Source: Euryarchaeota archaeon UBA556 (GTDB lineage Archaea > Thermoplasmatota > Poseidoniia > Poseidoniales > Thalassarchaeaceae). From it: DNA of 14,316 nt. The stretch lies in assembly GCA_002494975.1 (NCBI GenBank), contig DADI01000016.1, positions 1 through 14,316 of the forward strand. The letters run 5' to 3'. The notes under the pieces are model-generated. The model was not told where the DNA came from and made no database searches. It saw only the letters and a list, made by a program, of their open reading frames with translations. This document shows, piece by piece, positions 1-14,316 of the stretch (position 1 is its first letter; each line of letters begins with the position of its first letter). The position numbers were made by a program, and so were the translations under genes.

Positions 1-18
1 GATGAGTCTCCCGGAACT

Positions 19-3000
19 ATGAGTTCTGCTGTCAAAGATTCAGTGTCTTTGGAAACCAGCATAAATAATATTCTAAAAACTTATTTGGGTGATCAACTGT
101 CAGAAACTCTTCTAGAATATGCTGACATAGTTAATCCCGAAGAAATAGACTCTGCCGATAACGTATTAATATTTGGAGGACGCACTCGAAATGAAATTAA
201 ATTTGCTCAACTCCGCCAAGGTTCAAGTCCTGAAGGTGGAGTCGAAATACTTTCTGGTATTGAAGTCGGTTCTCTTTCTCCTAGCAATGCATTCTCCGAT
301 GAAAGAATTAGAAAAACTTTAGAAAATAAAGTTCTTCGTTTAAACGCTGGACCTAAGAGTGAGGATAAGAGGGCTGAACAAGCCCAACGGCTATCCAATA
401 TCCGCCGTTCAATTAATTCCCTTACTTCCGTCTTTGGGTTTGATGACCCTAGACAAGCGGAAGCATTTATCGCCGCTTGGTTAATGAAAGATTCCACTTG
501 CCGATTATCTGGAATTCCAGGAACTGGTAAAACTACTGTAGTCGAGTCGGCTGCATTACTTATGGCTAACTCCTATGGATTCGATGATCAAATAAGATTT
601 TATCCTAAAGATGCTTCTGATCCAGAATCAGAATTCCTTATCTTTGAAAACGGTCAACAATATGAAGCCTACCTAAATCAGAATAAGGATGGTATTCGAG
701 ATCTCTGGAATAACTGGAGATTTACTGAATGGTATTCTATGAATCCAGAACAACCCACTGAAAAAATTGCTAATTTAGGCTCCTCTGGTTCTTATCTATA
801 TGATTTTGGTTTCTTGGCTAAAAAGTATTCCGTGATGGAGGGACAAGTTGCTACTTATCGCCCAAAACTTGGAAGTATCTCTCCGGATCTCTATCGTAAA
901 GCCCTCTTAAATTGTTGGCTATACAAAAAGCCGGATATTAATCCCTTAGACGGTTCCGAATATACCATTTACAAAATCATGCCGATCAACCTGGGTCTTG
1001 AAGCCTTTGGTGCTGGTATGGATGGAAAAATTACGGCGGGAGAATCACACCCTAATGATCCTAATTATAAGGCTCAATTCACAGTAGATTATGCAAAACT
1101 TTTGACTCCCGGTTTAAAAGAAAAATTAACTGGTAACATGACAATGGCTGATTTATTACAGTCTTTAGACTTTAGAACTGATGCTGGCCGTAATGAAGGA
1201 TTTGCCCTTCGTGAGTGGTTAATGTCTCATTACTATGATGAGAGAAGAGACAGGGGAGATGCAGGTCGAAGTTCCATAAAGGGAGAAATGCTAAGAGAGA
1301 TTGGTATTGCTAAAATCGATTATGATAAGCGAGCCGATGAAGTCCTCTATGGTATGGATATTAGACAAGTTTCTAGAAAAGATCCAAATGATCCTGGAAA
1401 AACAATTTCCGCTTATGATTTCGAACCAATTCCAAGACCAGTTGTTACGCAACCTATCAAGTTCTTTAACGAAGCAAACCGTTCTCAATCTGGAGTAGAA
1501 GATGCAATTCTAGGATTGATTGCTGAAAAGACTGTAGAATATCGTGGACGTTCATTCCGTTCTCCTTCTTTCGTGGCTTGGATGGATACTAACCCTCACC
1601 AAAAAGGAAACGATTTGGCTTTCGTAGATCGAATTGATATGGAACTTTTATTCAGCACATTAACTTTAGGAGATAGATATATGCAGTTGAAGTCTCAATA
1701 TAAAGATAGAACTGTCAATCAAGATACAGATGCTCTCAGCCAACCTCAAGATTTAGTTATTTTTGATTCCGAAATTGGTATGGCTTCTGATTCACCTAAC
1801 CGTGCCCGTTCTATGCGAATTACAGATTTGATGAAACTCTGGAAATATATCGATGGAATACCTTTCACTAATGGCGGTCGATCAATGATGGGCTATGATG
1901 GATTAAGAGACATTTCTTTGATATCAGTTATGTTTACGCAAAGATACATGACACGCCCTACCGAAACTACAATGGGATCTGATCAAAGTAGAACGGCTCA
2001 GTTACCCGATTCACAAAACATTCACAGCAGTCCGTTAATAGATATTTCAAAGACTACTAATCAAGATCTATTAGAAGGAAACTCTCCGACTACCATGTTC
2101 GAAACAGATAACGCTTCGTCTTTTGGATCTATCGGAACTGATGGTTCTCTACAAGCACCCGCTTTATTCAAGAGAGTTTTAGGATTCAGGTTTACTAAAT
2201 CTTTAGTAAAACTTTCTCGAACATTAGCCTTCTTAAGAGGAAAAGATTTCGTTACTAGAACTGAAATTTTAGATGCCCTTCCATATGTTATCGGACATCG
2301 TATGGGTCCGGCTCGTGCCGGTAATGACCCTAAAGGTAGAGATCTCGGAACTGTAACTGGTGGATTAGGTGTGCTACCTTCTGAACAAGAATTAATTAGA
2401 GAACTTTTAGTTTCTGGATATGTAAAGCCAGTTTCTGGAGAGAGTTCAGATGATGGTTCCTTGAAGTTCGAACCTCTATATGAAGCACAAGCGAATCCAA
2501 ACACAAATTCTCGAAAAAATACATTACTTGATGTTTGGGATACCGTTTATCAAAGATGTATGGCTACTTTGGCCTCCTGTGATAACTTTGCTCAATATGA
2601 AGTCAAGATCCTTCGTCCATTAAAACAAATGTTAAATGGAGAAGATGCGGATAATGCAGAAAATACTACTCCTATTCATTGGCATATTGCTACTATGGTA
2701 GTAGAGCAAGAAAGAAAAGAAAAAGAACTTTCTCGATGTCTTCGAACTGATGATGGTCTAACTTATCGCCAAAGATATAACAAATACTTCCGAGCCATCA
2801 ATATTCCAACCGATGTTAATGAATCATTAGATATGCAAGCCCCTAGCACTGCTGAAGGTATTCAAATTGATTACAGTTTATTAGATTATTATATTTTGAG
2901 ATCTAAAATTGCCTCTGATCCATTGCTCTTTACTGATGATAGAACTTATTTACTTGACTTAGTAGAAGCACGTATCTCTACGTTTGCTGGACCGGCTTTC

Positions 3001-4074
3001 AATGTGGCCGCTGAGGATGCTATACAAGTTCCAATTGGATACTCTACTTACTATTTGTGGAATGATTCCAGTCCACTAATTCAAGATTACATAGTTCATC
3101 CAAATCCTGGAACTTACAATATTTCCACATATAATGATGCTTTGGGTGCTTACGGCCAACTAATGCAAAACAGTAAGAAAATTGATGTCGCTGCCATAAT
3201 CGGAGAAATCAGTTCCGAGGACGATGCGATATTTAATTTAACTAATGATGCTACTGTAGGGCTTTCTTATGAAATGTCCAACCAAAAGATGCAAATTTCG
3301 GGATCCTATCTTCATCGTAAAGAAAGTGATGGATCTTACTTGGAAATAGATAGAACTACGGCTCGATCTCCTGGAACGTATTTGGCTAGTATGGATGCCA
3401 TTACTGATAATTTCCGTGCTTGGTGCGATTCTGGAGTAATAATGGCTAGCAATGGCAGTATTATAAGTTCTAATGCAGATTTCGAATTGACTATGGAAGA
3501 TTGGGAACTCGCAGTAGAAGCCGTCTTAGCCAACCCTAATCAAGATATTGCTCAAACTTTATCAGATGCGGGCATAGATCCTACTTGGGAATTTGCTTTT
3601 GAGGATTCTGGTTTATTCTTTTGCTTCGATCTAGCACACCATAGTTCTTCTCGTAAAGCAAACACTTTACTAGTTATGATGAAAGAACAAGGATTGATTG
3701 ATGAAGACGCTACTGATATTCCAAACGATAAATTAAAACTATGGGTTTGGATCGCCGCTAAAAAATATATAGATGACGATGCTGCCACAGCAACTTGGAG
3801 ATACATCACTACTTATGGAATTACTAGTGGTTTCTTAGCCGATACAAAAATAATTAGAAAAGGAACCGGTCAATATGAAATGACAGTTCCCGGAACATTT
3901 GTAGCCATTGATAGTCAAGCATTTTATGACGCTTGTGGAAAGGCTAGCAATTGGTCCCCGGCCGGAGATGATACAGTTCCATTTATGGATGCAGGAAATT
4001 TGACCGAGGCTGATGCGGGAGCATACCACCAACTATTTTTAGGTGCTTTATTCCGTGCCAACCAGGGGTCTTGA
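19..4074 (+). CDS. Giant MoxR-family AAA+ ATPase with split core and long C-terminal extension
   Basis: Probable ATP-driven remodelling chaperone that works with the VWA protein encoded downstream. Visible landmarks are Walker A GIPGTGKT (residues 165-172), Walker B-like KFFNEANR (N484, E485), sensor-1 region MDTNPH (N525), arginine-finger-type DRID (537-540), and a MoxR-style lid helix with LAFLRGKDFVTRTEI and GHRM (about 735-763). Walker A and Walker B are about 310 residues apart, against roughly 60 in ordinary MoxR proteins, so about 250 residues are inserted in the core. A second polar, Ser/Thr/Asn-rich insertion lies at about 645-715. Residues about 780-1351 match nothing I recognise. 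The Walker B aspartate is Asn, while the catalytic Glu is kept. The frame is open to base 1 and no clear Shine-Dalgarno precedes the ATG at 19, so the true start may lie upstream of the window. The stop is 4 bases before the next gene. MoxR membership is confident; the function is inferred. Confidence 0.85.
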   Translation: MSSAVKDSVSLETSINNILKTYLGDQLSETLLEYADIVNPEEIDSADNVLIFGGRTRNEIKFAQLRQGSSPEGGVEILSGIEVGSLSPSNAFSDERIRKTLENKVLRLNAGPKSEDKRAEQAQRLSNIRRSINSLTSVFGFDDPRQAEAFIAAWLMKDSTCRLSGIPGTGKTTVVESAALLMANSYGFDDQIRFYPKDASDPESEFLIFENGQQYEAYLNQNKDGIRDLWNNWRFTEWYSMNPEQPTEKIANLGSSGSYLYDFGFLAKKYSVMEGQVATYRPKLGSISPDLYRKALLNCWLYKKPDINPLDGSEYTIYKIMPINLGLEAFGAGMDGKITAGESHPNDPNYKAQFTVDYAKLLTPGLKEKLTGNMTMADLLQSLDFRTDAGRNEGFALREWLMSHYYDERRDRGDAGRSSIKGEMLREIGIAKIDYDKRADEVLYGMDIRQVSRKDPNDPGKTISAYDFEPIPRPVVTQPIKFFNEANRSQSGVEDAILGLIAEKTVEYRGRSFRSPSFVAWMDTNPHQKGNDLAFVDRIDMELLFSTLTLGDRYMQLKSQYKDRTVNQDTDALSQPQDLVIFDSEIGMASDSPNRARSMRITDLMKLWKYIDGIPFTNGGRSMMGYDGLRDISLISVMFTQRYMTRPTETTMGSDQSRTAQLPDSQNIHSSPLIDISKTTNQDLLEGNSPTTMFETDNASSFGSIGTDGSLQAPALFKRVLGFRFTKSLVKLSRTLAFLRGKDFVTRTEILDALPYVIGHRMGPARAGNDPKGRDLGTVTGGLGVLPSEQELIRELLVSGYVKPVSGESSDDGSLKFEPLYEAQANPNTNSRKNTLLDVWDTVYQRCMATLASCDNFAQYEVKILRPLKQMLNGEDADNAENTTPIHWHIATMVVEQERKEKELSRCLRTDDGLTYRQRYNKYFRAINIPTDVNESLDMQAPSTAEGIQIDYSLLDYYILRSKIASDPLLFTDDRTYLLDLVEARISTFAGPAFNVAAEDAIQVPIGYSTYYLWNDSSPLIQDYIVHPNPGTYNISTYNDALGAYGQLMQNSKKIDVAAIIGEISSEDDAIFNLTNDATVGLSYEMSNQKMQISGSYLHRKESDGSYLEIDRTTARSPGTYLASMDAITDNFRAWCDSGVIMASNGSIISSNADFELTMEDWELAVEAVLANPNQDIAQTLSDAGIDPTWEFAFEDSGLFFCFDLAHHSSSRKANTLLVMMKEQGLIDEDATDIPNDKLKLWVWIAAKKYIDDDAATATWRYITTYGITSGFLADTKIIRKGTGQYEMTVPGTFVAIDSQAFYDACGKASNWSPAGDDTVPFMDAGNLTEADAGAYHQLFLGALFRANQGS

Positions 4075-4078
4075 ATAC

Positions 4079-5317
4079 ATGAGTATTAAATCATTTTCCG
4101 AGGCTCAGGCACAAGCCGCCTATAACGCTGAATTAAATGCACCGGCTGCATTAATTGATGCCTGGACTGAAATACTTCCTTTACAAGCAGGAACAAAATT
4201 GAATAGTGGTGGTTCCATTACTGATTTCGATATCGGTTCTGGATATCACGGCCCTGCCACTAATATGGGAAAAATCTTTATGCCTCTACAGTATATACCC
4301 ATGTGTATACCAGAAAATTATCATATGTTTGATCCTAGATTCGTAGATATTATGATTAAATATGTTGCCGGTTTCGTCTTGGCTCACGAAATAGGACACA
4401 ACAATATACATCCTGGCCAGTCTGCCGGAGATTGGGCAACAGCAATTAAAGATATTGAAGTAGATGAATCTGATAAAGTTATGTGGATGAATTTTATTTC
4501 AGACATAATGGTAAACTATAATGTTAATAATGCTACTGCTCTTTCTGGAGGTGTCTCTGAGACAGACAGAGAAAATTATATTCTAAACACTACTTTAGGA
4601 AATCATGTATCCATGTTTTTAAGAACTCAACACAATCCTGCCCATATGCAAGAAGTTTTAGATGCCAAAAGAACTTATACAGGAGTTCCTATTTCAGATA
4701 ATCGACAAGTAAAAGACGACATTGTTCCAGATGAAGATCCTCTTTGGCATTATTATAGTGGATTAGGAAGAGGAAATCAATATTTCCCTTCTTTGGCACA
4801 ATCTGTTTGTGAAAATCATCCTAAAGAATATTTACAAGTTCGACCTCGAAAGACTGGAAACCCCGGAGAAACTAGGTTAAGTGATTCTAAATCTTATACA
4901 GTAGTCGATGTTGAAACTTATGATGGAAAACATAAGGATGAATTAATTGCAGAGTCTAATAAGAAAGCATCATCAGCACCTTATAATTTATTACCTTATT
5001 ATCAACCCATTGCTAAAATTAAAATTGGTTCTGACTGGTATGATGCACGATATTTTGATGACATTTGTCCATTATCTGGGAAAGTAATGTGGGGTGGATC
5101 TACCTGGAATTATTGGTTACAATCAGAAACAAAAGAAACTTGGGATCAAAAGGTAGGAGGAGATGATAATCGAGCACAAATTGTTCATTTATTATGTAAT
5201 GAGTGGGGAGGCCACTATGCAAATGAGGGATTTGCTGGAAAAACAGGATACAAAGCCGGTGATGCTTGGATAGATGCTTTTGCACCCGTAATGCACCAAG
5301 TTTTTAGATATGAGTGA
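4079..5317 (+). CDS. Zinc metallopeptidase-like protein (HEIGH motif) of the MoxR/VWA-associated type
   Basis: The 412-aa product contains VLAHEIGHNN, a zincin HExxH motif with H103, E104 and H107. About 30 residues later comes WMNFISDIMVNYNV (N138, D142, N146). This HExxH plus N-x3-D-x3-N layout recalls the putative metallopeptidase domain (DUF2201 N-terminal type) that is usually fused to a VWA-like domain and encoded beside MoxR ATPases. Here no VWA follows; residues about 150-412 are unrecognised, and the VWA is a separate gene two positions downstream. D142 is a candidate third zinc ligand. I see no signal peptide, so it probably acts in the cytoplasm. I chose ATG 4079 rather than the in-frame GTG at 4043, because AGGGGT (4064-4069) sits 9 bases upstream and the GTG lies inside the preceding gene. 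The 4-base gap to that gene indicates co-transcription. Proteolytic activity is inferred from the motif only. Confidence 0.8.
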   Translation: MSIKSFSEAQAQAAYNAELNAPAALIDAWTEILPLQAGTKLNSGGSITDFDIGSGYHGPATNMGKIFMPLQYIPMCIPENYHMFDPRFVDIMIKYVAGFVLAHEIGHNNIHPGQSAGDWATAIKDIEVDESDKVMWMNFISDIMVNYNVNNATALSGGVSETDRENYILNTTLGNHVSMFLRTQHNPAHMQEVLDAKRTYTGVPISDNRQVKDDIVPDEDPLWHYYSGLGRGNQYFPSLAQSVCENHPKEYLQVRPRKTGNPGETRLSDSKSYTVVDVETYDGKHKDELIAESNKKASSAPYNLLPYYQPIAKIKIGSDWYDARYFDDICPLSGKVMWGGSTWNYWLQSETKETWDQKVGGDDNRAQIVHLLCNEWGGHYANEGFAGKTGYKAGDAWIDAFAPVMHQVFRYE

Positions 5318-5320
5318 GTT

Positions 5321-5325
5321 GGAGG
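5321..5325 (+). promoter_or_regulatory. Ribosome-binding site of the 847-aa zinc-ribbon gene
   Basis: GGAGG stands 7 bases before the ATG at 5333. It is the strongest Shine-Dalgarno in the window and fixes the start. It fits a gene translated from an internal position in a polycistronic message. Confidence 0.75.
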
Positions 5326-5332
5326 AAATAAT

Positions 5333-7876
5333 ATGGGTTATGAAGATAATGCTTTCAATTCCAAAGCAGGAATAGATATTTTGAAACAAAATTTTAGATT
5401 AGTTTTTGCTCCTTCAAGAAAGGATCCAACTCAGATAGAAAGCAAAGATTTACAAACAATTACTAAACATTTCGTATCAAATACCAAACAGATCATAAAT
5501 AATATTAAAAGATTTGCTAAAGGTTATACTCCTATTAAACCTTCGGATGCTTATGAAAGTGGTATTTATGTTTGCCCTCATTGTCAACGCCGAGATTGGA
5601 TGTGGCTTTGGGAGTATAAAGATTTAGGATACTGGGATCAAGATTCAATTTCTACTGGAAATCTAAATTTTAATTTAACTTCTGGATTTAGTAAAAAAGA
5701 TTATAGATCAAACACATTCCCTTCTATCGCTCACGTAACCTGCAATACTGTAAATTATTGTCCAGAGTGTAGCATTACTAGTTTAGACTCAACTGTTTGC
5801 CCTAATTGCAGTGGAAATACTAAGAAAGTAGGTTGTGGTAAAGATTCATATGCAATTCACTATACCCCTCCAATAACTGCCTCCACTTATGGGGCTACTC
5901 AAATAACTGCAACTAACAATTCTACCCATAAATATGTAGAGAAAAATATTTCAGAAACCTCACAACAAATCAAATATCAATCAGGAATTAGAACTGCTTT
6001 TGAGTATCAAAAAGAGTCAGTAGCCCCTAGGGAGTTCACAAACGATTCTACTAGTTCAAATATTTATTCCACTAAGTATTCTAATTTTGAACAAAAAAGA
6101 GTAGGAATTCCTAGTTTAGTAGTTGGATATTCTTCCAGTTCATTAATTAAAACCAATGATAATGGGACTATGGGGAAGCCGTTAGTTGAAAGATATCCTA
6201 TTTCACCTATGCGTATGTTGATTTCAAACCCTCCAGCGAGATATAAATGTAATCATAGAGATCATTGGAGTTTCGGAAAAGATGGAGGTTGGTATAGTAG
6301 TTCTGCATATGCGATTACTTCTCGTAGTCTAGGTGAATCTTATTGGTGTGATACCGTAGATCCAGAAACTGGAAGACAACATGGAAATAGATATACTCAA
6401 AATGATTTAAGTTTTGGTCGTTCAGATTTGTTAAATTGCCGAATTACTAGTCCTAATCCATTACCAGGGGATGCAATCCAAGGGAGAACTTTTGGTGGAA
6501 AGCCAATTTATCGTATAACTCTACAGTATGAAAGCAATGTTAATTATCGTGGTAGCGACTCAACAAACCTTACTGATGATAGTAATTGGTCTACAACATT
6601 TTCTAGCACGGTGCAAAAGTCTCTTTATTTGCCTATGGTTTTTAGTTTAATGGAAATCCCACAGAATGTAACTGACGTAGATATGAATCCTGGCGGGCGA
6701 GAACCTTGCCCCAACGATCCAGCAATAGAAGAAATTGTGGGATCTTTCAAAGCCGACTTGACAGCCCAAGAAGAATTGCCACCAGAAACTAGAATTGATA
6801 AAACTTTAACCGTAGAAAAACTAATTGATGAAGGCCGTCAAGATATAGTAGATATTTTAAATCAATATGCTAGAGGATTTATTAATGATGAAATTTCTCC
6901 TTTACTACTAGAAAATACTAGTAACCGAGGCATTCTTTTGAACAAAAAATATCGTGGCTGGGTTGATTTATCAGATCCAATCGAAAACGCCGGTGGATTT
7001 ACAGTTCCTCGTAAATTATTCTTAAATAATAAAGTAGACAAAGCCAAGACTTGGTTAAAAGATTATTGCCGAAATACTTTATTTGATAATGATATCGCTC
7101 CATCTGGGAAAATAATTTTTGGTAATTTTGGATGGGTTGCTTCAGCACGGAATAGACGAAGCCGAACTGATGACCGAGTATTACACAAACCTAATTATAC
7201 ATGGCTGACTTCTACTCGACATATCGAACCTAGTATTATTCCGTTAATCGTAGGAACTAATAGCAGTATTACTACTTCTCAATCTCCTTGGAGTGCTGAG
7301 TTTAAGAGAAAATTAAAAGGCACTAAAGTTGCTGGATCTACTACAGCCATGAAACCATATATAACTAGTTCTCCTAGTTCATTCTTACCTCTCACTTTAT
7401 TGGCTTACACTAGTTTACCAGTGGCCGGAATAGGTGGAACTGTCTCCAAAGCAATAGATACTGAAATTAAAGATCTTAATATGCTACACTTTGTCGCCAC
7501 CGGTATAGATTATGTAGATGATGAAATGATGACTAGTTATACCGTTATGCGTTGTGAAACTTGTAATGAAATTGTGGACTCTGGAGGAGTCCTACCTTAT
7601 CGCATTGGCCGAGGAGAAGTAGATGCGGCTGGAAAAGTCACCGGAGTTAATAGGAACTTGACTCAAGAATACTTTGATATCGAACAGGCTCACGAAACTA
7701 ATGGGGGCGGTAAATACAAACCATATGTTAGTCAGTCTGGTGCGAATATTTGTCCAGCGTGGGGAATCGATGAACCGGCAGCCAATAAATATGGTAAAGA
7801 AATGTTACTAGGTAGGGTAACTGGACAGGATGCTTCTAAATCACTTACTATTAGTGCGAGGAAAGCAAAAAAGTAA
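5333..7876 (+). CDS. Large zinc-ribbon protein of unknown family in the MoxR module
   Basis: The 847-aa protein is not one I recognise. The N-terminal part is Cys-rich: CPHC (C81, C84), C137, CPEC (C143, C146), CPNC (C156, C159) and C168. The CPEC-9-CPNC pair is a compact double-CxxC zinc ribbon. A CNHRDHW segment follows in the middle, and CETC (C741, C744) plus C807 near the C-terminus could form another metal site. The region between is rich in Ser, Thr, Asn and Tyr and looks beta-structured, without membrane segments. The start is well supported: GGAGG (5321-5325) lies 7 bases before the ATG, and only 15 bases separate it from the metallopeptidase gene. Its place between the peptidase and VWA genes suggests a dedicated partner of the module, perhaps the substrate, adaptor or a virion component; this is inference. 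Confidence 0.75.
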   Translation: MGYEDNAFNSKAGIDILKQNFRLVFAPSRKDPTQIESKDLQTITKHFVSNTKQIINNIKRFAKGYTPIKPSDAYESGIYVCPHCQRRDWMWLWEYKDLGYWDQDSISTGNLNFNLTSGFSKKDYRSNTFPSIAHVTCNTVNYCPECSITSLDSTVCPNCSGNTKKVGCGKDSYAIHYTPPITASTYGATQITATNNSTHKYVEKNISETSQQIKYQSGIRTAFEYQKESVAPREFTNDSTSSNIYSTKYSNFEQKRVGIPSLVVGYSSSSLIKTNDNGTMGKPLVERYPISPMRMLISNPPARYKCNHRDHWSFGKDGGWYSSSAYAITSRSLGESYWCDTVDPETGRQHGNRYTQNDLSFGRSDLLNCRITSPNPLPGDAIQGRTFGGKPIYRITLQYESNVNYRGSDSTNLTDDSNWSTTFSSTVQKSLYLPMVFSLMEIPQNVTDVDMNPGGREPCPNDPAIEEIVGSFKADLTAQEELPPETRIDKTLTVEKLIDEGRQDIVDILNQYARGFINDEISPLLLENTSNRGILLNKKYRGWVDLSDPIENAGGFTVPRKLFLNNKVDKAKTWLKDYCRNTLFDNDIAPSGKIIFGNFGWVASARNRRSRTDDRVLHKPNYTWLTSTRHIEPSIIPLIVGTNSSITTSQSPWSAEFKRKLKGTKVAGSTTAMKPYITSSPSSFLPLTLLAYTSLPVAGIGGTVSKAIDTEIKDLNMLHFVATGIDYVDDEMMTSYTVMRCETCNEIVDSGGVLPYRIGRGEVDAAGKVTGVNRNLTQEYFDIEQAHETNGGGKYKPYVSQSGANICPAWGIDEPAANKYGKEMLLGRVTGQDASKSLTISARKAKK

Positions 7877-7886
7877 ATAGCATAAG

Positions 7887-7895
7887 TTAATATAG
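7887..7895 (+). promoter_or_regulatory. Possible TATA-like box before the VWA gene
   Basis: TTAATATAG sits in the 84-base gap between the zinc-ribbon and VWA genes. Archaeal spacing would place a start site near 7917, giving a leader that includes the GGAAGG ribosome-binding site. Another AT-rich candidate is at 7929-7936. The gap is AT-rich throughout, so the call is weak. Confidence 0.3.
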
Positions 7896-7960
7896 CAGAT
7901 AGAATAAAGTAAAACTAGTAAATTACAATAAAATTGAGGAAGTAAGGAAGGTCTTTGAAT

Positions 7961-9043
7961 ATGGCAGGAACATTTGAGCAAACCGCAATTGTTACTAAAG
8001 ATCCCTATGCGTGGTTGTCTGAATCTCCGATAGAGGCAGATCCCGCCGATTATCCTGAATTTGAAAATCCGTTAGAAGTCGTAGTTCGTGCATTAAATCA
8101 GATGATATTTCCTTCACCTAAGAAAATTAAATTTCCTGAAGAACCGACTGGTCGAAAATCTTGGATGCCAGGTATTGATCCAGAATCTAGAGTAATTCCT
8201 GAGACTATTGTTCCTGGAATTTTAGAAGGCAATCCTCTACAAAGAGTTATGCAATATACTCCTTCAGGAGATCCGACAGAAGGTGAAGCCACCTTCATTA
8301 ATTTTATTTGTGATTGTTCAGGTTCGATGAGCCGACCAGATATGGGTTTACTGCCTAATGGAGATCAATGTGCCCGTTGGGAAATGGCTAGGATTATTTG
8401 TTCTAGCATTTTAGAAGTTGCTAAAATAGAAGAACACTATTTCCAAGTAATAGGATATGATAATTCTGCATGGGATATTTGGGAAGGTCCTTCTAATGAT
8501 TACGATGCGGCTCTAGATTATATTTTAAGATTTAATGCTGATGAATCCAGAGAATATGGACCCGAGGCTCCATTCCTTCCAAGAGGTGGCACTTCTGCAG
8601 GAACAGGAATGGCTAGAGCATTGGAAAACATGGAAAAGTTTGTAGTAGGAGGTAAATGGAAGGTTAAAAATTGTTATACCTTCGTTATTTCAGATGAGGA
8701 TCTGTCATTTGGTGATGCTAGCAATAAGTCTAACCGCACAGTTGGTTATTGGGATGAAAAGTTACGGGCTTATGGTCCAGTTTTCTATGCCTTTACTACT
8801 CAAGTTCTTCCCGATGGATCCGTAAATGAAAAAGTTTCTGGACAAATGGTTAGAGCAATTAACTCCTTAAAACAGCAATTAGACAATCATTATGCCGGTA
8901 GATATAAAGTAAGCGATTGTTCGACAAGTTTTGGATTATTTTATGATCCTATTACTAAGAAGACAATTGGAGGGGGAACTTTTATAGAAGTTTGTCAAGG
9001 AAGGTCTAATGTAGCCTGTGAAGGAGCATTTAGTGACAAATAA
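7961..9043 (+). CDS. VWA-domain protein with intact MIDAS, probable MoxR partner
   Basis: The 360-aa protein has a von Willebrand factor A domain at about residues 110-330. The metal-ion-dependent adhesion site is complete: the DxSxS motif in ICDCSGSMS (D118, S120, S122), the threonine in RGGTSAGTG (T211) and the aspartate in FVISDED (D245). About 110 N-terminal residues precede it, and no signal peptide or transmembrane helix is visible. VWA proteins encoded with MoxR ATPases typically bind the target and recruit or regulate the ATPase. In the archaeal virus ATV, p892 (VWA, MIDAS) works with the MoxR-type p618. ATG 7961 is preferred over the in-frame TTG at 7955, with GGAAGG (7946-7951) 9 bases upstream. 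It follows the zinc-ribbon gene after an 84-base gap that may hold its own promoter. The gap after it has a T-rich stretch (about 9053-9073) that could be a weak terminator. Confidence 0.87.
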   Translation: MAGTFEQTAIVTKDPYAWLSESPIEADPADYPEFENPLEVVVRALNQMIFPSPKKIKFPEEPTGRKSWMPGIDPESRVIPETIVPGILEGNPLQRVMQYTPSGDPTEGEATFINFICDCSGSMSRPDMGLLPNGDQCARWEMARIICSSILEVAKIEEHYFQVIGYDNSAWDIWEGPSNDYDAALDYILRFNADESREYGPEAPFLPRGGTSAGTGMARALENMEKFVVGGKWKVKNCYTFVISDEDLSFGDASNKSNRTVGYWDEKLRAYGPVFYAFTTQVLPDGSVNEKVSGQMVRAINSLKQQLDNHYAGRYKVSDCSTSFGLFYDPITKKTIGGGTFIEVCQGRSNVACEGAFSDK

Positions 9044-9084
9044 AATACTGAATTCTTTCTATGTGCTTGTTTAGATGTGAACCC

Positions 9085-9092
9085 TTAAATAT
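9085..9092 (+). promoter_or_regulatory. TATA-like box of the HerA-like ATPase gene
   Basis: TTAAATAT, preceded by CCC, is centred 31.5 bases before the ATG at 9120. Archaeal geometry (TATA about 26 bases before transcription start) predicts a 5-7 base leader. It lies in the 76-base gap after the VWA gene and shares the TTAAATA core with the boxes at 11322, 12322 and 14172. Confidence 0.5.
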
Positions 9093-9119
9093 CTGTAGGT
9101 CATAACTAAAAGTGATTAT

Positions 9120-10376
9120 ATGTCTGACATTACTCTGGGCGACCACATTAAATTTCCGGCTTACGGAGAAAAATCTGTATCTTCGCAAGTTGTTTTCGTT
9201 ACTGGTAAGAGAGGTTCCGGAAAATCTTATACCGCTGGTGTGATGATGGAAGAATTTGATAAGGCTCAGTTACAATTCGTTTGTTTCGATGTTTTGTCTG
9301 CCCATGCCGGTATGGATGCATTACCTAATGTAGAATCTATCCGTCCTCGAGAAGATGAAACTATTGATATGAATTTATTAGTCTCTAAGATCGCTACCGG
9401 AAATAAATCTTTAATTATAGATATTGGAGGATGCACATTACCTAAGCAACAACTTTTAATTGCTGATTATTGTGAGGCTCTAATTGATGCCAAAATTGGC
9501 CATAACCATAATAAAACTTTAATGACTATTATTGAAGAATGTCAGGATTTCGTGCCCCAACAAGGACGGCCAGTTTCATTTTCACCAATTGTTAGACTTT
9601 GTAAGTTAGGTCGTGGACTAGGTTATGGTTGCACTTTGATTACTCAGCGACCTGCAGCCTGTAACAAAGAAGCCTTATCACAAGCGGCAGTATATCTAAC
9701 TCATAATGTGATAAATAGCCGTGATCTCAAGGCTTTGGAAGAACAGTTGTCGTTTGGAACTGATCGAGAAAGAGTAAAAAGAATTCTGCAAGGAGTCAAT
9801 GCGGCTCAAAAAGGAGAAGTCGTAGCCTATGCTCCCGAATATTTCCGAGAAACAGGATACATTCGTATTGGTAAAATCCGTGGCGATCGCCGAGTTAAAC
9901 ATACGGGTGGAAACATTTCGGCTTCGCCATTAACCAGTAATAATTCTGGCGTTACTGCTGGAACTAGTTCTCCTTCTGGAGAAATGATTGGAGACTATAG
10001 TAATTCATCCAATAATATTTCTTTTGCCGAAACTAGTTCTCCTACAGGTCTAGTTACTTTAGAACCTATTAGCAGTTTAGGTGGGGCGGGTGCAGCCTCC
10101 TCTTTGTTAACTAGTAATATGGGATTCAAACCTTTAGATCCCTATGCGGCCTCTGAAATGGGTGGCGATAGATATCTTACCGACATGGATTTAGATTCTT
10201 CTCGAGAAGAAATTTTGACTTGGGATCCTCCAGTAACCTATGAGGGTCTTGAAGACATGAACTCTGATACATTTTTATCAGAGGAAACCAAAACATCATA
10301 TATTAAAGGTCCTATTTGGGGCTTTGGTGTCGCAGTAATGATTGCTTCGGGTGCATATTTCGTAGTAAAGAAATGA
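9120..10376 (+). CDS. HerA/FtsK-superfamily ATPase with C-terminal membrane anchor
   Basis: Probable DNA-translocating or DNA-packaging motor. The 418-aa protein has Walker A TGKRGSGKS (28-36), a Walker B strand LMTIIEEC with two glutamates (E139, E140) followed by QDF, and TLITQRPA (172-179), the conserved post-Walker-B segment seen as 'QRP' in HerA-type ATPases. The ATPase core ends near residue 255. A Ser/Thr/Gly/Pro-rich linker (about 260-395), with the repeated short pieces GTSSPSG and ETSSPTG, leads to a hydrophobic helix at about 397-416 ending in Lys-Lys, which looks like a tail anchor. No HAS-barrel domain precedes the core, so it is shorter at the N-terminus than cellular HerA. A TTAAATAT box lies upstream, and only a weak GTGAT Shine-Dalgarno is present. 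It could package genome into a membrane-containing virion, move DNA at a membrane, or serve in conjugation. Confidence 0.82.
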   Translation: MSDITLGDHIKFPAYGEKSVSSQVVFVTGKRGSGKSYTAGVMMEEFDKAQLQFVCFDVLSAHAGMDALPNVESIRPREDETIDMNLLVSKIATGNKSLIIDIGGCTLPKQQLLIADYCEALIDAKIGHNHNKTLMTIIEECQDFVPQQGRPVSFSPIVRLCKLGRGLGYGCTLITQRPAACNKEALSQAAVYLTHNVINSRDLKALEEQLSFGTDRERVKRILQGVNAAQKGEVVAYAPEYFRETGYIRIGKIRGDRRVKHTGGNISASPLTSNNSGVTAGTSSPSGEMIGDYSNSSNNISFAETSSPTGLVTLEPISSLGGAGAASSLLTSNMGFKPLDPYAASEMGGDRYLTDMDLDSSREEILTWDPPVTYEGLEDMNSDTFLSEETKTSYIKGPIWGFGVAVMIASGAYFVVKK

Positions 10377-10401
10377 TTATATAGGTGATTTCCTTATAAT
10401 C
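10375..10401 (+). repeat. Imperfect inverted repeat between two genes
   Basis: GATTATA-T-AGG pairs with CCTTATAATC, giving ten base pairs with one bulged T around a six-base loop (TGATTT). It starts inside the stop codon of the ATPase gene and ends four bases before the next ATG. It could be an operator overlapping the TATA-like box, or a weak RNA hairpin at the end of the upstream message. There is no following T-run, so an intrinsic bacterial terminator is unlikely. Confidence 0.45.
10377..10384 (+). promoter_or_regulatory. TATA-like box of the F-x-AGD protein gene
   Basis: TTATATAG is centred 25.5 bases before the ATG at 10406, so transcription would start at or beside the start codon (leaderless). 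The box overlaps the left arm of an inverted repeat, which could let a repressor compete with TBP binding. Confidence 0.45.
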
Positions 10402-10405
10402 AGTC

Positions 10406-11329
10406 ATGAGTTTACCGGTTGCATTTCAAGCCGGAGACTTAGTTATTATTCCAGAGGGTGAATATATTGACATCTGCGTCACGCATGAAGATAATCTAAC
10501 TTCAACGCACACAGTTAAAATCAAAGACTATCTTAATATGTCAAATATCTTTTTTCGAAGGAAATATAATCTTCCCAAAAATTATGATCGGTCGATTAAT
10601 AATAGTAGAATATTATCCAGAGGTGTGGAGTTAGTTCAATTAATTAGTCCCGTAGAAAAGGATAAGGGTCAAGTAATATTTGAAGCCGGAGATTGGGTAG
10701 TAAGGTCTTTACCCATAGAACATCAAACTTTATCAGAAGGAGTTAGTTATAGTTTAAATAAGTATCCAACTAAAAAATTAAGCCCTACAAAAAAGTGGAT
10801 CAAAGTTGTCGCCAAACCAATAGTGTGGCCGGATCAAGCATTTGAAAGATGGTATCCAATTAATGAGATTTTCTTTACTAGGATTCCAAGATTAGTCCCC
10901 TATGTAGAATTGCATCGGCCTATGAATAATTGGGATAAGAATACTTTTGTTTGGTGGGAGGTATACAATACATCTCATTTTAAAAATGGTTATTACATTC
11001 CAAATTTAGAATACTTAGATGATATTATCTTTCTTCCTTTTGCAGTCCAAATGGATAGTGATGATAATAAAAAATTAAAAAATTCTAAGGGTCCTGGTTG
11101 GTTAGTAAAAATAAAAAATGATAAATGGCGTAAAGAAATTGGATCCGGTAGAACTCATTTTCAAAATGAAAATTATTTACATATAGATACGTATCAAGAA
11201 AACGGCTTTGATTATTTTTATGTCCCTTTGACACAAATTTCTATTAGTTTCCACTGTCCAGTTACCTTTGATGAATCTTTATCAGTCTTAGGAAATGGAA
11301 TCCCCTGTGAAATACAACCTATTAAATAG
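10406..11329 (+). CDS. Hypothetical protein with repeated F-x-AGD motif
   Basis: I do not recognise this 307-aa protein. It looks like an all-beta protein rich in aromatic residues. Two similar segments, VAFQAGDLVII (about 5-15) and VIFEAGDWVV (about 90-99), suggest duplicated small beta-barrel modules, reminiscent of KOW/SH3-like folds that often start with such a turn. Further Tyr/Trp-rich strands (ERWYPINEIFFTRIP, about 151-165, and FDYFYVPLTQISIS near 269-282) may continue the pattern. There is no membrane segment and no cysteine cluster. The start at 10406 lies 25.5 bases after the centre of a TTATATAG box, with no Shine-Dalgarno at usable distance (AGGTGAT ends 16 bases away). Its stop codon overlaps the promoter box of the next gene. 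A structural role in a virion is possible but unsupported by homology. Confidence 0.6.
   Translation: MSLPVAFQAGDLVIIPEGEYIDICVTHEDNLTSTHTVKIKDYLNMSNIFFRRKYNLPKNYDRSINNSRILSRGVELVQLISPVEKDKGQVIFEAGDWVVRSLPIEHQTLSEGVSYSLNKYPTKKLSPTKKWIKVVAKPIVWPDQAFERWYPINEIFFTRIPRLVPYVELHRPMNNWDKNTFVWWEVYNTSHFKNGYYIPNLEYLDDIIFLPFAVQMDSDDNKKLKNSKGPGWLVKIKNDKWRKEIGSGRTHFQNENYLHIDTYQENGFDYFYVPLTQISISFHCPVTFDESLSVLGNGIPCEIQPIK
11322..11329 (+). promoter_or_regulatory. TATA-like box of the Pro/Ala-rich protein gene
   Basis: TTAAATAG lies within the 12-base sequence ATTAAATAGTCG (11321-11332), which recurs exactly at 12321-12332. It is centred 25.5 bases before the ATG at 11351, predicting a leaderless transcript, and no Shine-Dalgarno is present. 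Its last three bases are the stop codon of the upstream gene. Confidence 0.55.
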
Positions 11330-11350
11330 TCGTGCAGTAAATGTTCTACC

Positions 11351-12301
11351 ATGCGTATCATTGATAGAAATTCCATGATAAGGAATCTACCTAATACTCC
11401 AAAGATTGCAGCACTGCCTTCAGTGAACATAGTTAGAGATTCACTTCCTGCCCACAATGCTGAAGCCCAAGGATTAGTTGCCGCCGGTCCAAGACCTGCA
11501 CCTCCTGTGCTACCTAATATGCCCTCTCTAAATATTCCATCTCCTAATAGTTATTCATTGGCAGACTTTGCTGCTGGTAGAGGAGCCGGACAAGGTGTTG
11601 TTCCTAATACGCCTTTGCCAGCCACTCCTAATGCTCCAAAAGCAATGAGATTAAAGTTAGACGCTGATTATGCTCGCCGTGATCAAGATCTTTCAAGATA
11701 TAATTTGAAATCTTCTAACTGGACTCCATCCGCTCAGTATTCTAGACCATCTCACACAATGGAGATTTATGGTGTCGGTCGATCAGTAGATATTTCTGGT
11801 ATGAACCGCATGAAAGCAGAATCTTTTATGAGTAATGTCAATATTCACGGTCCATCACACAATTTCGGTGGAGATCCAAGATTTGAAGCACAACACGCTG
11901 CTGTTAGACCTACTGCTGCACAATTAAGTCCAAACCACGCTCTACGTTCTCAAAAGGATCTTCGAATGACTGAATTCATGAGAGCCAATAGTGGTCCTGC
12001 CGCAACTATTTCTGGATTCGATAGAACTGGAATAGCAAAGAGAATGATGGCAGAATCTACACCAAAAAGAATTCCACTTCAAAATTTACCAGTTCGTCCA
12101 GCGGCTAACTTACCTAGTGCCCCTAGAGTTACACATTTAATACCTAAGTCTCATGGAGTAAAATTAGAAGCAAATTACATTGCACCTCCAATTCGTGGTG
12201 CAGATCTTGGTGGAAAGTTTAGTTCTATGTCTTCAGTATCTGGAAATATAGGAGTTCATCCTGGTCGTGCTTTCGGTGCTGACGCACATCTATTCCGCTA
12301 A
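11351..12301 (+). CDS. Pro/Ala-rich, probably disordered hypothetical protein
   Basis: The 316-aa protein is rich in Pro, Ala, Ser, Asn, Arg and Met, with no cysteine and no membrane helix. It is likely unstructured for much of its length. The N-terminal 100 residues carry repeated short proline motifs: LPNTP, LPSVN, LPNMP, IPSPN, VPNTP and TPNAP. A related piece returns near the C-terminus, where PNAPK (93-97) followed by KLDADY (102-107) is echoed by PSAPR (255-259) and KLEANY (271-276), suggesting an old internal duplication. Two AES motifs (156-158 and 234-236) could be processing sites. The start ATG is 25.5 bases after the centre of a TTAAATAG box and lacks a Shine-Dalgarno, which fits a leaderless message. 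Possible roles are virion scaffold, linker or secreted structural protein; I cannot choose between them. Confidence 0.62.
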   Translation: MRIIDRNSMIRNLPNTPKIAALPSVNIVRDSLPAHNAEAQGLVAAGPRPAPPVLPNMPSLNIPSPNSYSLADFAAGRGAGQGVVPNTPLPATPNAPKAMRLKLDADYARRDQDLSRYNLKSSNWTPSAQYSRPSHTMEIYGVGRSVDISGMNRMKAESFMSNVNIHGPSHNFGGDPRFEAQHAAVRPTAAQLSPNHALRSQKDLRMTEFMRANSGPAATISGFDRTGIAKRMMAESTPKRIPLQNLPVRPAANLPSAPRVTHLIPKSHGVKLEANYIAPPIRGADLGGKFSSMSSVSGNIGVHPGRAFGADAHLFR

Positions 12302-12321
12302 ACTTAGTAGAGTAGACATCA

Positions 12322-12329
12322 TTAAATAG
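12322..12329 (+). promoter_or_regulatory. TATA-like box of the two-helix membrane protein gene
   Basis: TTAAATAG lies within the second exact copy of ATTAAATAGTCG (12321-12332). It is centred 32.5 bases before the ATG at 12358, predicting a leader of about 6 bases. It sits in the 56-base gap after the Pro/Ala-rich gene, and no Shine-Dalgarno is nearby. Confidence 0.55.
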
Positions 12330-12357
12330 TCGGAACAAGCAATCTTAATCGTTGTCT

Positions 12358-12771
12358 ATGCCTCGTTTAAAATCTGAAGCGATAGTTCGTGCTCAATGTG
12401 ATGCGGGACTAGCCGCTTACTTAGCAGAAATACATAAGAAAGATTTAACCAGTTCTGCCGGAACAGGAATTTTTCTAGGAACTATCATTAGTGGTTCTAT
12501 CTGGGGTATCTCTAAAGTTCTAAATGAAAAGTTTGGAATTCTAGAATATTCTTTTATTTTTGGTGGTGCTTTATTATCTTCGATTTTATCTGCAGTATTA
12601 ACTTGGAATAATTCTGATGGAAAACACGAATTAGATTTTGAAACTGTTTGTGGATCATTAGAAGAATCAGACGAATCAGAAGAGGATGAAGATGAAGAAG
12701 ATACTGATGTTGAGGAATCCGAGGAATATTATTCAGAAGAAAAATTACTCCCTACTAAAATATTAATGTAA
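12358..12771 (+). CDS. Small two-helix membrane protein with acidic tail
   Basis: The 137-aa product has a short basic/amphipathic N-terminus, two predicted transmembrane helices (about 35-55, GTGIFLGTIISGSIWGI, and about 62-83, YSFIFGGALLSSILSAVLTW) and then a highly acidic tail (about 101-129, mostly Glu/Asp/Ser). The loop between the helices is short, so it is probably a helical hairpin with both ends on the same side of the membrane. Glycine-rich helices and small size are compatible with a virion membrane protein or a holin-like protein, but neither is demonstrated. ATG 12358 is chosen over the in-frame TTG at 12352. No Shine-Dalgarno is present, but a TTAAATAG box is centred 32.5 bases upstream. 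The next gene begins 14 bases after the stop. Confidence 0.62.
   Translation: MPRLKSEAIVRAQCDAGLAAYLAEIHKKDLTSSAGTGIFLGTIISGSIWGISKVLNEKFGILEYSFIFGGALLSSILSAVLTWNNSDGKHELDFETVCGSLEESDESEEDEDEEDTDVEESEEYYSEEKLLPTKILM
12756..12763 (+). promoter_or_regulatory. Possible TATA-like box of the triple zinc-ribbon gene
   Basis: TAAAATAT is centred 26.5 bases before the ATG at 12786, inside the 3' end of the upstream gene. It departs from the TTAAATAG form and the gene also has a Shine-Dalgarno, so co-transcription with the upstream gene is equally plausible. Confidence 0.25.
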
Positions 12772-12785
12772 AGAAGGTAGATTAT

Positions 12786-14198
12786 ATGGAACATAAAAAG
12801 AATTGTGGTTGCGGTCAAGACCCTTGTGTGACTTACGGGGCTGAATCCTTTGATGCTCAAACATGGAACATAAAGTGTGATGTTTGTGGTGAAAAGCCTA
12901 TCTATGATACGGTTGATTCGGAAGATTATGGTAAAGAGATTCAAGTCTGTGAAGAATGTTTTAATGGTATTTTCGCGGCAGAATCCAATAGTGCAAACGA
13001 TGATATTTCACTTATGATGAATCTTATAGATGAGATAGAAGCCAATGATATTTGGAATGAAACTATTAATGAAATGATCCGCCGAGGAAAAGCAGTTCGT
13101 AGACCAGATGGAAAAGTTATTTTTTCTGACAGAGTTCCTCAATTCGATATCATAGAAGATATTGCTCAATATACAACCCCCGAGATTAAGTCGGCTGAAA
13201 ATTCAGACCATTGGATGACTTTTGGAAGAGTAGATTATAATTGGGTTACGGATCCAGAAGATTTGGAATTAACCGATGAAAACTTTTATATTATTGATGC
13301 ACACATCCGTGATGAAGTTCGTTATGTAATTGATAATGATAATGACAATTCATCCGGTGAAAGCAATCTTTCGTCTGGAGATTTAAATCTCACTCAAGAA
13401 GATGAAGATGAGTTTACAATTTATTACTACTGGGGATCTCCCTTTACTACTGGAGTAAATTCTGCAGAATCCGAAGATGATGGCCCCACAAATTGTGGAG
13501 TTTGCGAAGTAAAGATTGGCTATGATGAAGCGATTCATTACGAGGAATTGGAATGGTGTGAAAAATGTTATGAGGAACAGATGGAGAGAGATATGCAAAA
13601 TTATACACACGATGAAACGGATTGCATTTCATGTGGATTTGCTATTAGTCCAAATGATGTTCGCGTTGAATTGGTTGAGGGGTTATGCCCCGATTGTAAT
13701 TACATTAGAAATGCAGAAGACTTAAGCAGTTTTACTTCTAAAGAACTTACAGAAAGTTCTGCGATTCATGGAGACTTTGATCACGCCTCAATTAATTATT
13801 CCGGACACCAAAACCTTGAGGTTCGTGCGGAAGCCGAGATAAAAATATACTCTTTCAAAGAATTATCCGAAGAAGCACAAACAAAAGCAGTAGCAGACTA
13901 CATTGAAGGATGGGAAGAAACCCATGAGATGGGAGATATGGAGTATTTAGATGCCCTTTCCGTCTTGAAATATGATTACCCTATGGATGGCTTAGACCAT
14001 TATAAAAAAGATGGAACATTTGTGACTCCCGAAGAAGCCTATGGTGCCGAAGCAGCGGAAGTCCTAGATGCAGAAGAAAATATTGCTTTAGCAGATCCCA
14101 GTTTTTGGATGAATTATCCGATCACTAGTATGTTGGCTACTGCAGGAATTTTTGCCATCGGAAAGACGCTATTAAATAGTAGAAAGGGGGACATATAA
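12786..14198 (+). CDS. Triple zinc-ribbon protein with C-terminal membrane helix
   Basis: The 470-aa acidic protein has three four-cysteine modules of CxxC-n-CxxC type: C31/C34 with C55/C58, C237/C240 with C258/C261, and C280/C283 with C301/C304. There is also a Cys-rich N-terminus (C7, C9, C14). The first two modules resemble each other and each follows an AES motif (19-21 and 227-229), suggesting duplication. Residues about 350-372 (KIYSFKELSEEAQTKAVADY) match a short helical motif that I recall from many phage and archaeal hypothetical proteins. Residues about 446-463 form a single hydrophobic helix close to the C-terminus, followed by a basic tail (NSRKG), so it is probably tail-anchored with the zinc ribbons in the cytoplasm. 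AGAAGG (12772-12777) lies 8 bases before the ATG. Its 3' end contains the promoter box and Shine-Dalgarno of the next gene. The function is unknown. Confidence 0.72.
   Translation: MEHKKNCGCGQDPCVTYGAESFDAQTWNIKCDVCGEKPIYDTVDSEDYGKEIQVCEECFNGIFAAESNSANDDISLMMNLIDEIEANDIWNETINEMIRRGKAVRRPDGKVIFSDRVPQFDIIEDIAQYTTPEIKSAENSDHWMTFGRVDYNWVTDPEDLELTDENFYIIDAHIRDEVRYVIDNDNDNSSGESNLSSGDLNLTQEDEDEFTIYYYWGSPFTTGVNSAESEDDGPTNCGVCEVKIGYDEAIHYEELEWCEKCYEEQMERDMQNYTHDETDCISCGFAISPNDVRVELVEGLCPDCNYIRNAEDLSSFTSKELTESSAIHGDFDHASINYSGHQNLEVRAEAEIKIYSFKELSEEAQTKAVADYIEGWEETHEMGDMEYLDALSVLKYDYPMDGLDHYKKDGTFVTPEEAYGAEAAEVLDAEENIALADPSFWMNYPITSMLATAGIFAIGKTLLNSRKGDI
14172..14179 (+). promoter_or_regulatory. TATA-like box of the pentapeptide-repeat gene
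   Basis: TTAAATAG, part of a third copy of ATTAAATAGT (14171-14180), lies inside the last codons of the zinc-ribbon gene. It is centred 25.5 bases before the ATG at 14201. Unlike the leaderless candidates, this gene also has a strong Shine-Dalgarno between box and start, so it may be translated from the upstream message as well. Confidence 0.4.
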
Positions 14199-14200
14199 AC

Positions 14201-14316
14201 ATGAAGCAATCTACGAAAGGATCTAAGCGTAATACTAGTCTGAAAGGTGCTGACTTATCTGGTTATGACTTGACGGGTGCCAACCTGCGAGGTGCCGACC
14301 TGACCAATGCCAACCT
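14201..14316 (+). CDS. Pentapeptide-repeat protein, 5' part only (cut by window end)
   Basis: The first 38 codons are visible, reading into A(D/N)LxG-type repeats: GADLS, GYDLT, GANLR, GADLT, NANL. These are the hallmark of the pentapeptide-repeat family, which folds into a right-handed quadrilateral beta-helix. Some members mimic DNA and protect gyrase, but most have unknown roles. A lysine-rich N-terminal leader of about 13 residues precedes the repeats. The ATG is supported by AAAGGGGG (14183-14190), 10 bases upstream, and the gene starts 2 bases after the preceding stop. Leucine is mostly CTG here, while neighbouring genes prefer TTA/CTT/TTG, and local GC is higher, hinting at a different origin or at repeat-driven bias. 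The length and any additional domain lie outside the window. Confidence 0.85.
   Translation, partial: MKQSTKGSKRNTSLKGADLSGYDLTGANLRGADLTNAN

Follow-up and report, generated by a model that had tools for sequence, protein, structure and literature searches.

Contig DADI01000016.1 of Euryarchaeota archaeon UBA556 (assembly GCA_002494975.1) raises the question of what a MoxR-type AAA+ ATPase, a metallopeptidase, a large zinc protein and a VWA protein, encoded one after the other, do together. The stretch analysed (positions 1 to 14,316 of the contig, 14,316 bases, hereafter the window) has a GC content of 34–41% per kb and nine main open reading frames (ORFs), all on the + strand, with neither a tRNA nor an Rfam match at gathering threshold. 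A sequence-only reading had proposed a four-gene module ending at 9043 on a virus or large plasmid. All four ORFs were confirmed on the + strand and in the order it gave: the MoxR-type ATPase (1..4074), a zincin metallopeptidase (4079..5317), an 847-aa zinc protein (5333..7876) and the VWA protein (7961..9043). The end at 9043 did not hold, as the gene for an FtsK/HerA-type packaging ATPase (9120..10376) follows as a fifth member, and the gaps across the five-gene block are 4, 15, 84 and 76 nt. On balance, and with moderate confidence, we favour the view that a large marine archaeal virus uses the block as an operon for late virion morphogenesis, providing ATP-driven remodelling and proteolysis near the packaging apparatus.

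The arrangement recurs in other genomes. A MoxR search of viral contigs returned four contigs, of which L002 equals L001 in match statistics and was counted once with it, and scanning genome contigs with a MoxR profile brought in three more, from metagenome-assembled genomes (MAGs). The order MoxR, peptidase, zinc protein, VWA, packaging ATPase is common to the window and relatives L001, L003, L004, L009 and L010, while L011 ends inside the peptidase; the VWA gene of L004 was recognised as an ORF in position, not via tblastn with the window protein. Block gaps in the window and these relatives run from -11 to 84 nt, with two exceptions: in L010 the ATPase is preceded by 325 nt, and in L004, a 166-kb contig, the MoxR gene is split over two overlapping frames (L004:9908-13772); P0115 and P0119, close homologues of that protein (82–90% identical), are single 1279-residue proteins. 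The sequence-only reading was right that the peptidase and VWA are separate genes and that the zinc protein is a fixed partner: both features hold in the window and all five relatives. Across these six genomes, pairwise identity is 23–57% for the peptidase, 21–43% for the zinc protein, 22–58% for VWA, 33–57% for MoxR (L004 by its N-terminal piece), 44–72% for the packaging ATPase and 37–66% for a 316-aa protein encoded downstream. Because the block order is kept in five distinct relatives despite 21–58% identity of the peptidase, zinc protein and VWA, we regard it as above chance.

Profile scans of viral contigs with the packaging ATPase, MoxR, peptidase and zinc protein each returned only the same four contigs, 84–166 kb long; the VWA profile found three of these and no others, and a single-sequence VWA scan of the viral contigs gave no match. 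Homologues lacking MoxR or VWA neighbours, a check suggested in the sequence-only reading, were not seen: none stood alone in the viral contigs, in profile scans that reach fairly close relatives only and leave metagenomes outside their scope. Protein searches yielded 23 peptidase, 20 zinc protein and 255 MoxR homologue clusters, counts that are not comparable with one another and none of which carries genomic context; the peptidase and MoxR searches scored only candidates sharing most words.

The fifth gene probably ties the block to genome packaging. ORF 9120-10376 matches PHROG 2666 (terminase large subunit) at E 1.8e-16 and, by tblastn, the putative ATPases of Haloarcula hispanica icosahedral virus 2 (HHIV-2; E 6e-5) and Haloarcula californiae icosahedral virus 1 (HCIV-1; E 6e-3); hhalign aligned it with the HHIV-2 ATPase over 178 columns (92%). 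HerA helicases and defence HerA ATPases also match, weakly. By these similarities it is an FtsK/HerA packaging-type ATPase with a predicted packaging role. A C-terminal hydrophobic segment is present in the window protein and in its counterparts in records G001 and G002. HHIV-2, a member of the Sphaerolipoviridae, thus has a related ATPase, but its genome is 30.6 kb, against 150–166 kb for the contigs here, and its capsid proteins show no detectable kinship to the capsid-like family described below. A defence system was considered for the module and rejected: its four proteins have no PADLOC match at E 0.1, and the HerA-type PADLOC matches all belong to the packaging ATPase.

A mostly same-strand stretch of ~65 kb in G001 and G002 holds both the block and genes of a multi-copy capsid-like family, which occurs in six of six records (G001, G002, G003, G403, G004 C16 and G005 C1, where the MAG contigs C16 and C1 are presumed, by length and match positions, to be the block-bearing ones). 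Aligned members have 160–281 residues. A low-confidence model is jelly-roll-like, with a chain of the Sulfolobus polyhedral virus 1 (SPV1) capsid as best match; Foldseek placed animal-virus capsids on top at TM-scores of no more than 0.35 among the 50 matches listed, a generic jelly-roll signal. A 9-protein profile found nothing better in the PDB than E 0.06 (cutinases), one single member gave phage matches at E 7 only and another none, and no sequence kinship to HHIV-2 VP4, VP7 or VP2 was detectable. We consider the family probable capsid proteins. With a packaging-type ATPase and this family in the relatives, the virus half of "virus or large plasmid" stands, for a virus known from its genes alone, and the large plasmid was rejected as the main interpretation. 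As to a large terminase of the kind that marks tailed viruses (Caudoviricetes), PF03237, the sole terminase profile searched singly, is absent from all four virus records, which may be fragments.

The host appears to be archaeal, because G002 encodes PolD, TBP, TFIIB and PCNA, all among the matches listed (25 of 42 families). Archaeal TBP is present in all four viral contigs and PolD in three; the PolD large subunit, DP2, lies at L017:9124-12690 (-) in G002 and is found also in G001, G003 and G004 C16, with no DP2 in 50,697 phage records. The MoxR homologue P0146 is assigned to a Euryarchaeota MAG. L009, L010 and L011 are virus-like contigs in MAGs titled Rickettsiales, Acidiferrobacteraceae and Flavobacteriales. 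These bacterial placements are probably binning errors, the evidence (PolD on the contig) concerning G004 C16 alone. G002 also encodes a B12-type ribonucleotide reductase, and MoxR proteins have been described as maturing dedicated protein complexes (PMC3893208). Both would suit a block devoted to maturation of a metal-containing enzyme, or to some other general chaperone service unrelated to the particle, but no metalloenzyme gene was recognised beside the block and its linkage is to the packaging ATPase, which makes this explanation very improbable.

How far do the proteins themselves fit a remodelling machine? The MoxR ORF is open to base 1 and has 1357 residues counted from there. Database cluster P0052, recorded as encoded by the window and 99% identical to its MoxR, is 1403 aa long and exceeds the window ORF, so ~46 N-terminal residues are probably cut off and the ATG at 19 is probably internal. 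The assignment to MoxR in the sequence-only reading is borne out by Pfam AAA_lid_2, matched in six of six members and scoring 28.7 bits for the window protein against a cut-off of 22.7; AAA_3 is matched in six of six at a best E of only 0.018 and AAA_5 in three of six. D-E is the typical Walker B pair of MoxR proteins, though not a strict definition. Here the Walker A GIPGTGKT is followed, after a long insert, by a variant Walker B, KFFNEANR, in which the Glu is kept and Asn replaces Asp. Of 255 homologue clusters, 120 were listed; all 120 have KFFNEANR and DTNPH, 118 have DRID and 117 the P-loop pattern, and in the 117 measured the distance from P-loop to Walker B is 250–449 residues. A long C-terminal extension completes the protein, and the MoxR proteins of the block have ~1200–1500 residues. 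We class the ATPase as MoxR-type and place it on a divergent branch because the Walker B Asp is replaced by Asn.

The peptidase most likely starts at ATG 4079, giving 412 aa, the length also of the 98% identical homologue P0007. Both HE[ILV]GH (HEIGH in the window) and W-x-N-x-x-S-D are present in 23 of 23 homologue clusters, and its assignment as a zincin, predicted from these motifs, is secure. The sequence-only reading had likened it to DUF2201-type metallopeptidases. Neither the window protein nor its relatives reached the cut-off of any Pfam family, and none of seven peptidase members matched PF13203 (DUF2201_N) at E<=1. For the DUF2201_N pattern, HExxH with W-N-x-x-(A/S)-D-x-x-(V/I)-N after it, profile comparison gave a mixed picture. 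From 21 PF13203 loci we obtained 11 proteins, of which six lacking HE..H (several with HHxxH) were dropped; against the five selected sequences, the peptidase scored 47.8 in hhalign (93%) over 54 columns that include the W-N..D..N motif, with a maximum of 20.3 among 60 column-permuted controls. Addition of six phage proteins (n=11) gave a score of 41.4 over 68 columns including an upstream T-D strand. The full cellular set of 11 proteins, six without HExxH, reached a probability of 20% and a score of 36.7 over 24 columns only, and single L036 proteins gave 0.5% against the profile of the peptidase, 1.5% against that of VWA and 0.1% against that of MoxR. As a control, M78 peptidases (16 of 20 loci used, all together and in six subsets of five) scored 44.9 for all and 41.8–48.9 for the subsets. 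Five of these seven runs covered 15–19 columns of the zincin helix, one 34 and one 50, and the 50-column run scored 48.9, above the DUF2201 score of 47.8. The zincin assignment stands, and DUF2201 kinship depends on a motif and profile comparison with a control about as high. The second motif (W-N..D..N) speaks for such kinship, which is no more than possible; the protein may be a diverged, split relative of the DUF2201 peptidase-VWA fusion.

The zinc protein had been described as carrying a double CxxC. The CxxC motifs are there, but as four pairs rather than two (C81/84, 143/146, 156/159 and 741/744), each cysteine being conserved in 25 of 25 aligned sequences; five more cysteines are kept in 24 or 25 of them. 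Pfam, PHROG and other profile searches of the window protein gave no family match, and its structure model is of low confidence (pLDDT 49.6). The VWA protein has a ~110-aa N-terminal region and, as the sequence-only reading had it, a metal ion-dependent adhesion site (MIDAS; DCSGS, GGT loop and later Asp in the window). Five of six members match VWA_2 at E<=1, the best at 1.3e-6; the window protein, at E 0.0015, does not reach the curated cut-off. DxSxS and the later Asp are present in six of six. The GGT-loop Thr is kept in four, with Asn instead in L003 and L004. A role as MoxR co-chaperone is probable.

If the operon is expressed late, as we infer, the MoxR protein would form an AAA+ ring, onto which the VWA protein would dock a substrate after binding a segment of it through the MIDAS. 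ATP hydrolysis would restructure the substrate and the separately encoded peptidase, if proteolytically active, would trim it, with the zinc protein as fixed scaffold, adaptor or substrate of the presumed complex. The substrate would likely be an assembly protein located close to the packaging ATPase, belonging to the capsid, the vertex or a membrane. This proposal is favoured because the order beside the packaging ATPase is fixed in the window and five relatives, because the genes return the same four viral contigs and share a stretch with capsid-like genes, and because there are precedents in archaeal virus and jumbo phage (PMC4124505, PMC7824862).

The closest of these precedents is the phage one. 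Jumbo phages of group 2.2 carry a MoxR and VWA pair in which VWA is fused to a metallopeptidase, with virion assembly and structural-protein processing proposed as its roles (PMC7824862). Viral MoxR-VWA with a peptidase is therefore already in print and was overlooked in the sequence-only reading. In a search of 50,697 phage records, 717 matched a DUF2201-type query, and for 542 the match spanned 80% or more of it; related peptidase-VWA fusions also occur in schitoviruses. Six phage regions were compared. In 121Q an annotated ATPase lies directly upstream of the peptidase-VWA gene; it is two genes away on that side in XC38 and in Vibrio phage 2.275.O, and five in phage 30-2; in Zuri a 60-residue 'ATP binding protein' is encoded directly upstream, and phage G has none within 3 kb. 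Six phage peptidase-VWA proteins have HExxH followed by (W/Y)-N-x-A-(A/C/G)-D-x-x-I-N. In both the phage and window systems, a viral genome encodes an ATPase close to a zincin peptidase and a VWA domain. The two systems differ in that peptidase and VWA are fused in the phages and separate, with the large zinc protein between them, in the window and five relatives; in the ATPase, whose P-loop to Walker B distance is 68–128 residues with D-E in three of five readable phage proteins, against 250–449 and N-E in the window branch; and in the adjoining packaging ATPase and apparently archaeal hosts of the window block. The window system thus resembles a split, enlarged form of the phage pair, in archaeal viruses. 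As a side observation, annotations of the phage gene often read 'HNH endonuclease' or 'homing endonuclease' (L078, L082 and several RefSeq phages), which looks like a spreading mislabel.

The second precedent is Acidianus two-tailed virus (ATV), whose MoxR protein p618 is part of the virion, has the VWA protein p892 as a binding partner and has been given a role in developing the tails (PMC4124505). It too is an archaeal virus MoxR-VWA pair tied to virion morphogenesis. Close kinship to p618/p892, the pair that the sequence-only reading had named, is not supported: the window MoxR had no tblastn match in the 50,697 phage records, although ATV was among them, and hhalign was weak (3.3% over 96 columns for MoxR with p618, 8.9% over 191 for VWA with p892). 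These alignments do sit on the expected motifs, from Walker B to DR in p618 and at DSSGSM and GGTN in p892. The proteins differ in size and Walker B (p618, 618 residues with D-E; window branch, 1200–1500 with N-E), neither ATV protein has HExxH, and four annotated genes separate p618 from p892 in a 62-kb genome. The window system may work like the ATV pair by analogy; a close relationship is beyond what the alignments support. ATV does suggest a different use of such proteins, as a virion-borne entry or ejection machine that would work after release, either on the envelope of the host or, as in proposed ATV tail growth, on the shape of the particle. The presence of p618 in the virion, its binding by the VWA partner (PMC4124505) and the hydrophobic C-terminus of the packaging ATPase in the window, G001 and G002 are compatible with this, but the profile alignments to the ATV pair are weak, nothing indicates that block proteins are packaged in particles, and the 19 PHROG families that 45 late-block proteins of G002 matched include none for tails (in another protein set, 25 of 50 matched families were listed). 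We judge it unlikely.

Several points weigh against the late-operon proposal. The support for it comes from genes and sequences alone, and the variant Walker B could reduce ATPase activity. The peptidase-VWA genes of schitoviruses Zuri and XC38 have genes for dCTP deaminase, helicase or DNA polymerase nearby instead of structural genes, which argues against a universal structural role of the fused gene. Pairwise identities across the six genomes are correlated (peptidase-VWA r 0.92, peptidase-zinc protein 0.89), but so are those of the packaging ATPase and 316-aa protein (0.86), and one close pair dominates, so the correlations point to common descent rather than to a complex. The peptidase, zinc protein and VWA also vary more than the packaging ATPase (21–58% against 44–72%), as conflict proteins can, and more than the 316-aa protein. 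Together with the replication-gene neighbours in the two schitoviruses, this faster divergence would fit host takeover or counter-defence, in which VWA and the zinc protein would single out host proteins for disassembly and cleavage by the MoxR ring together with the peptidase. Bacterial MoxR-VWA ternary systems, which like the block keep MoxR, VWA and a third protein dedicated to them in a constant order, were described as biological conflict systems (PMC7159879); the block differs from them in having no recognised effector domain, in being viral and in its link to packaging. The position directly beside the packaging ATPase in the window and five relatives, the stretch shared with capsid-like genes and the empty PADLOC result speak against host takeover, which we hold to be a minor but real possibility. 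The attack on a host or competitor floated in the sequence-only reading thus finds no direct support, while the faster divergence of three of the four proteins leaves room for it.

Cellular PF13203 operons offer a further comparison. An ORF with a P-loop pattern lies near the match in 11 of 11 loci (L036-L046), its MoxR identity being presumed, and a VWA motif was recognised in the same ORF as the match in three (L036, L041 and L045). The P-loop ORFs mostly have 340–500 residues, against 1200–1500 in the block.

MoxR-VWA machines are poorly understood AAA+ systems, and viral examples offer a bounded set of candidate substrates. Because the window encodes the ATPase, the co-chaperone, the peptidase and their constant third partner individually, next to the gene of a packaging motor, the parts can be produced and studied one at a time. 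As far as the open-licence literature searched shows, four things are apparently new: the virus group, the link of the block to a packaging ATPase, the MoxR branch with its variant Walker B, and the split into four proteins, the zinc protein always among them. PolD has been described as exclusive to Archaea (PMC10721889). If the capsid interpretation is true, the contigs would be large archaeal viruses carrying PolD, and none such was seen among the titles and abstract openings of the open-licence literature searched. We tentatively suggest, as a bolder and somewhat doubtful extension, that the contigs represent an undescribed lineage of large (~150–170 kb) tailless marine archaeal viruses with their own PolD and a jelly-roll capsid, in which the block would be the core virion-maturation motor-peptidase, remodelling and trimming the packaging vertex by means of a MoxR with an oversized AAA core and non-canonical Walker B.

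The surroundings of the block hold further genes. A protein of ~640–740 residues is encoded directly upstream of MoxR in L001, L003, L009, L010 and L011 (for example L014:14113-16230 and L009:6975-9200); the copies show weak or no sequence similarity to one another, and that of L003 has no PHROG match. A well-conserved ArsA/Get3-like ATPase (L014:7473-8618 in G002) lies upstream of the block on the same strand, with 54% identity between G001 and G002. The idea that it serves tail-anchored proteins with hydrophobic C-termini in the late block was dropped as not convincing; single C-terminal hydrophobic segments occur in 13 of 129 late proteins and 12 of 222 others in G001 and G002.

Downstream of the packaging ATPase, the window encodes a 307-aa protein (10406..11329) with no family match and no tblastn relative in the loci compared. 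The 316-aa protein (11351..12301) is 37–61% identical to its positional counterpart in the five relatives reaching that far. Relatives of a 139-aa protein (12352..12771) occur in L003 and L009; by eye this protein has an acidic tail and hydrophobic stretches, none of which passes the segment threshold. The last ORF encodes a 470-aa protein (12786..14198) of no confident family, with a weak DUF7685 match (E 5e-4, below cut-off), in which several Cys-pair clusters and repeated A-E-S-like stretches are visible by eye.

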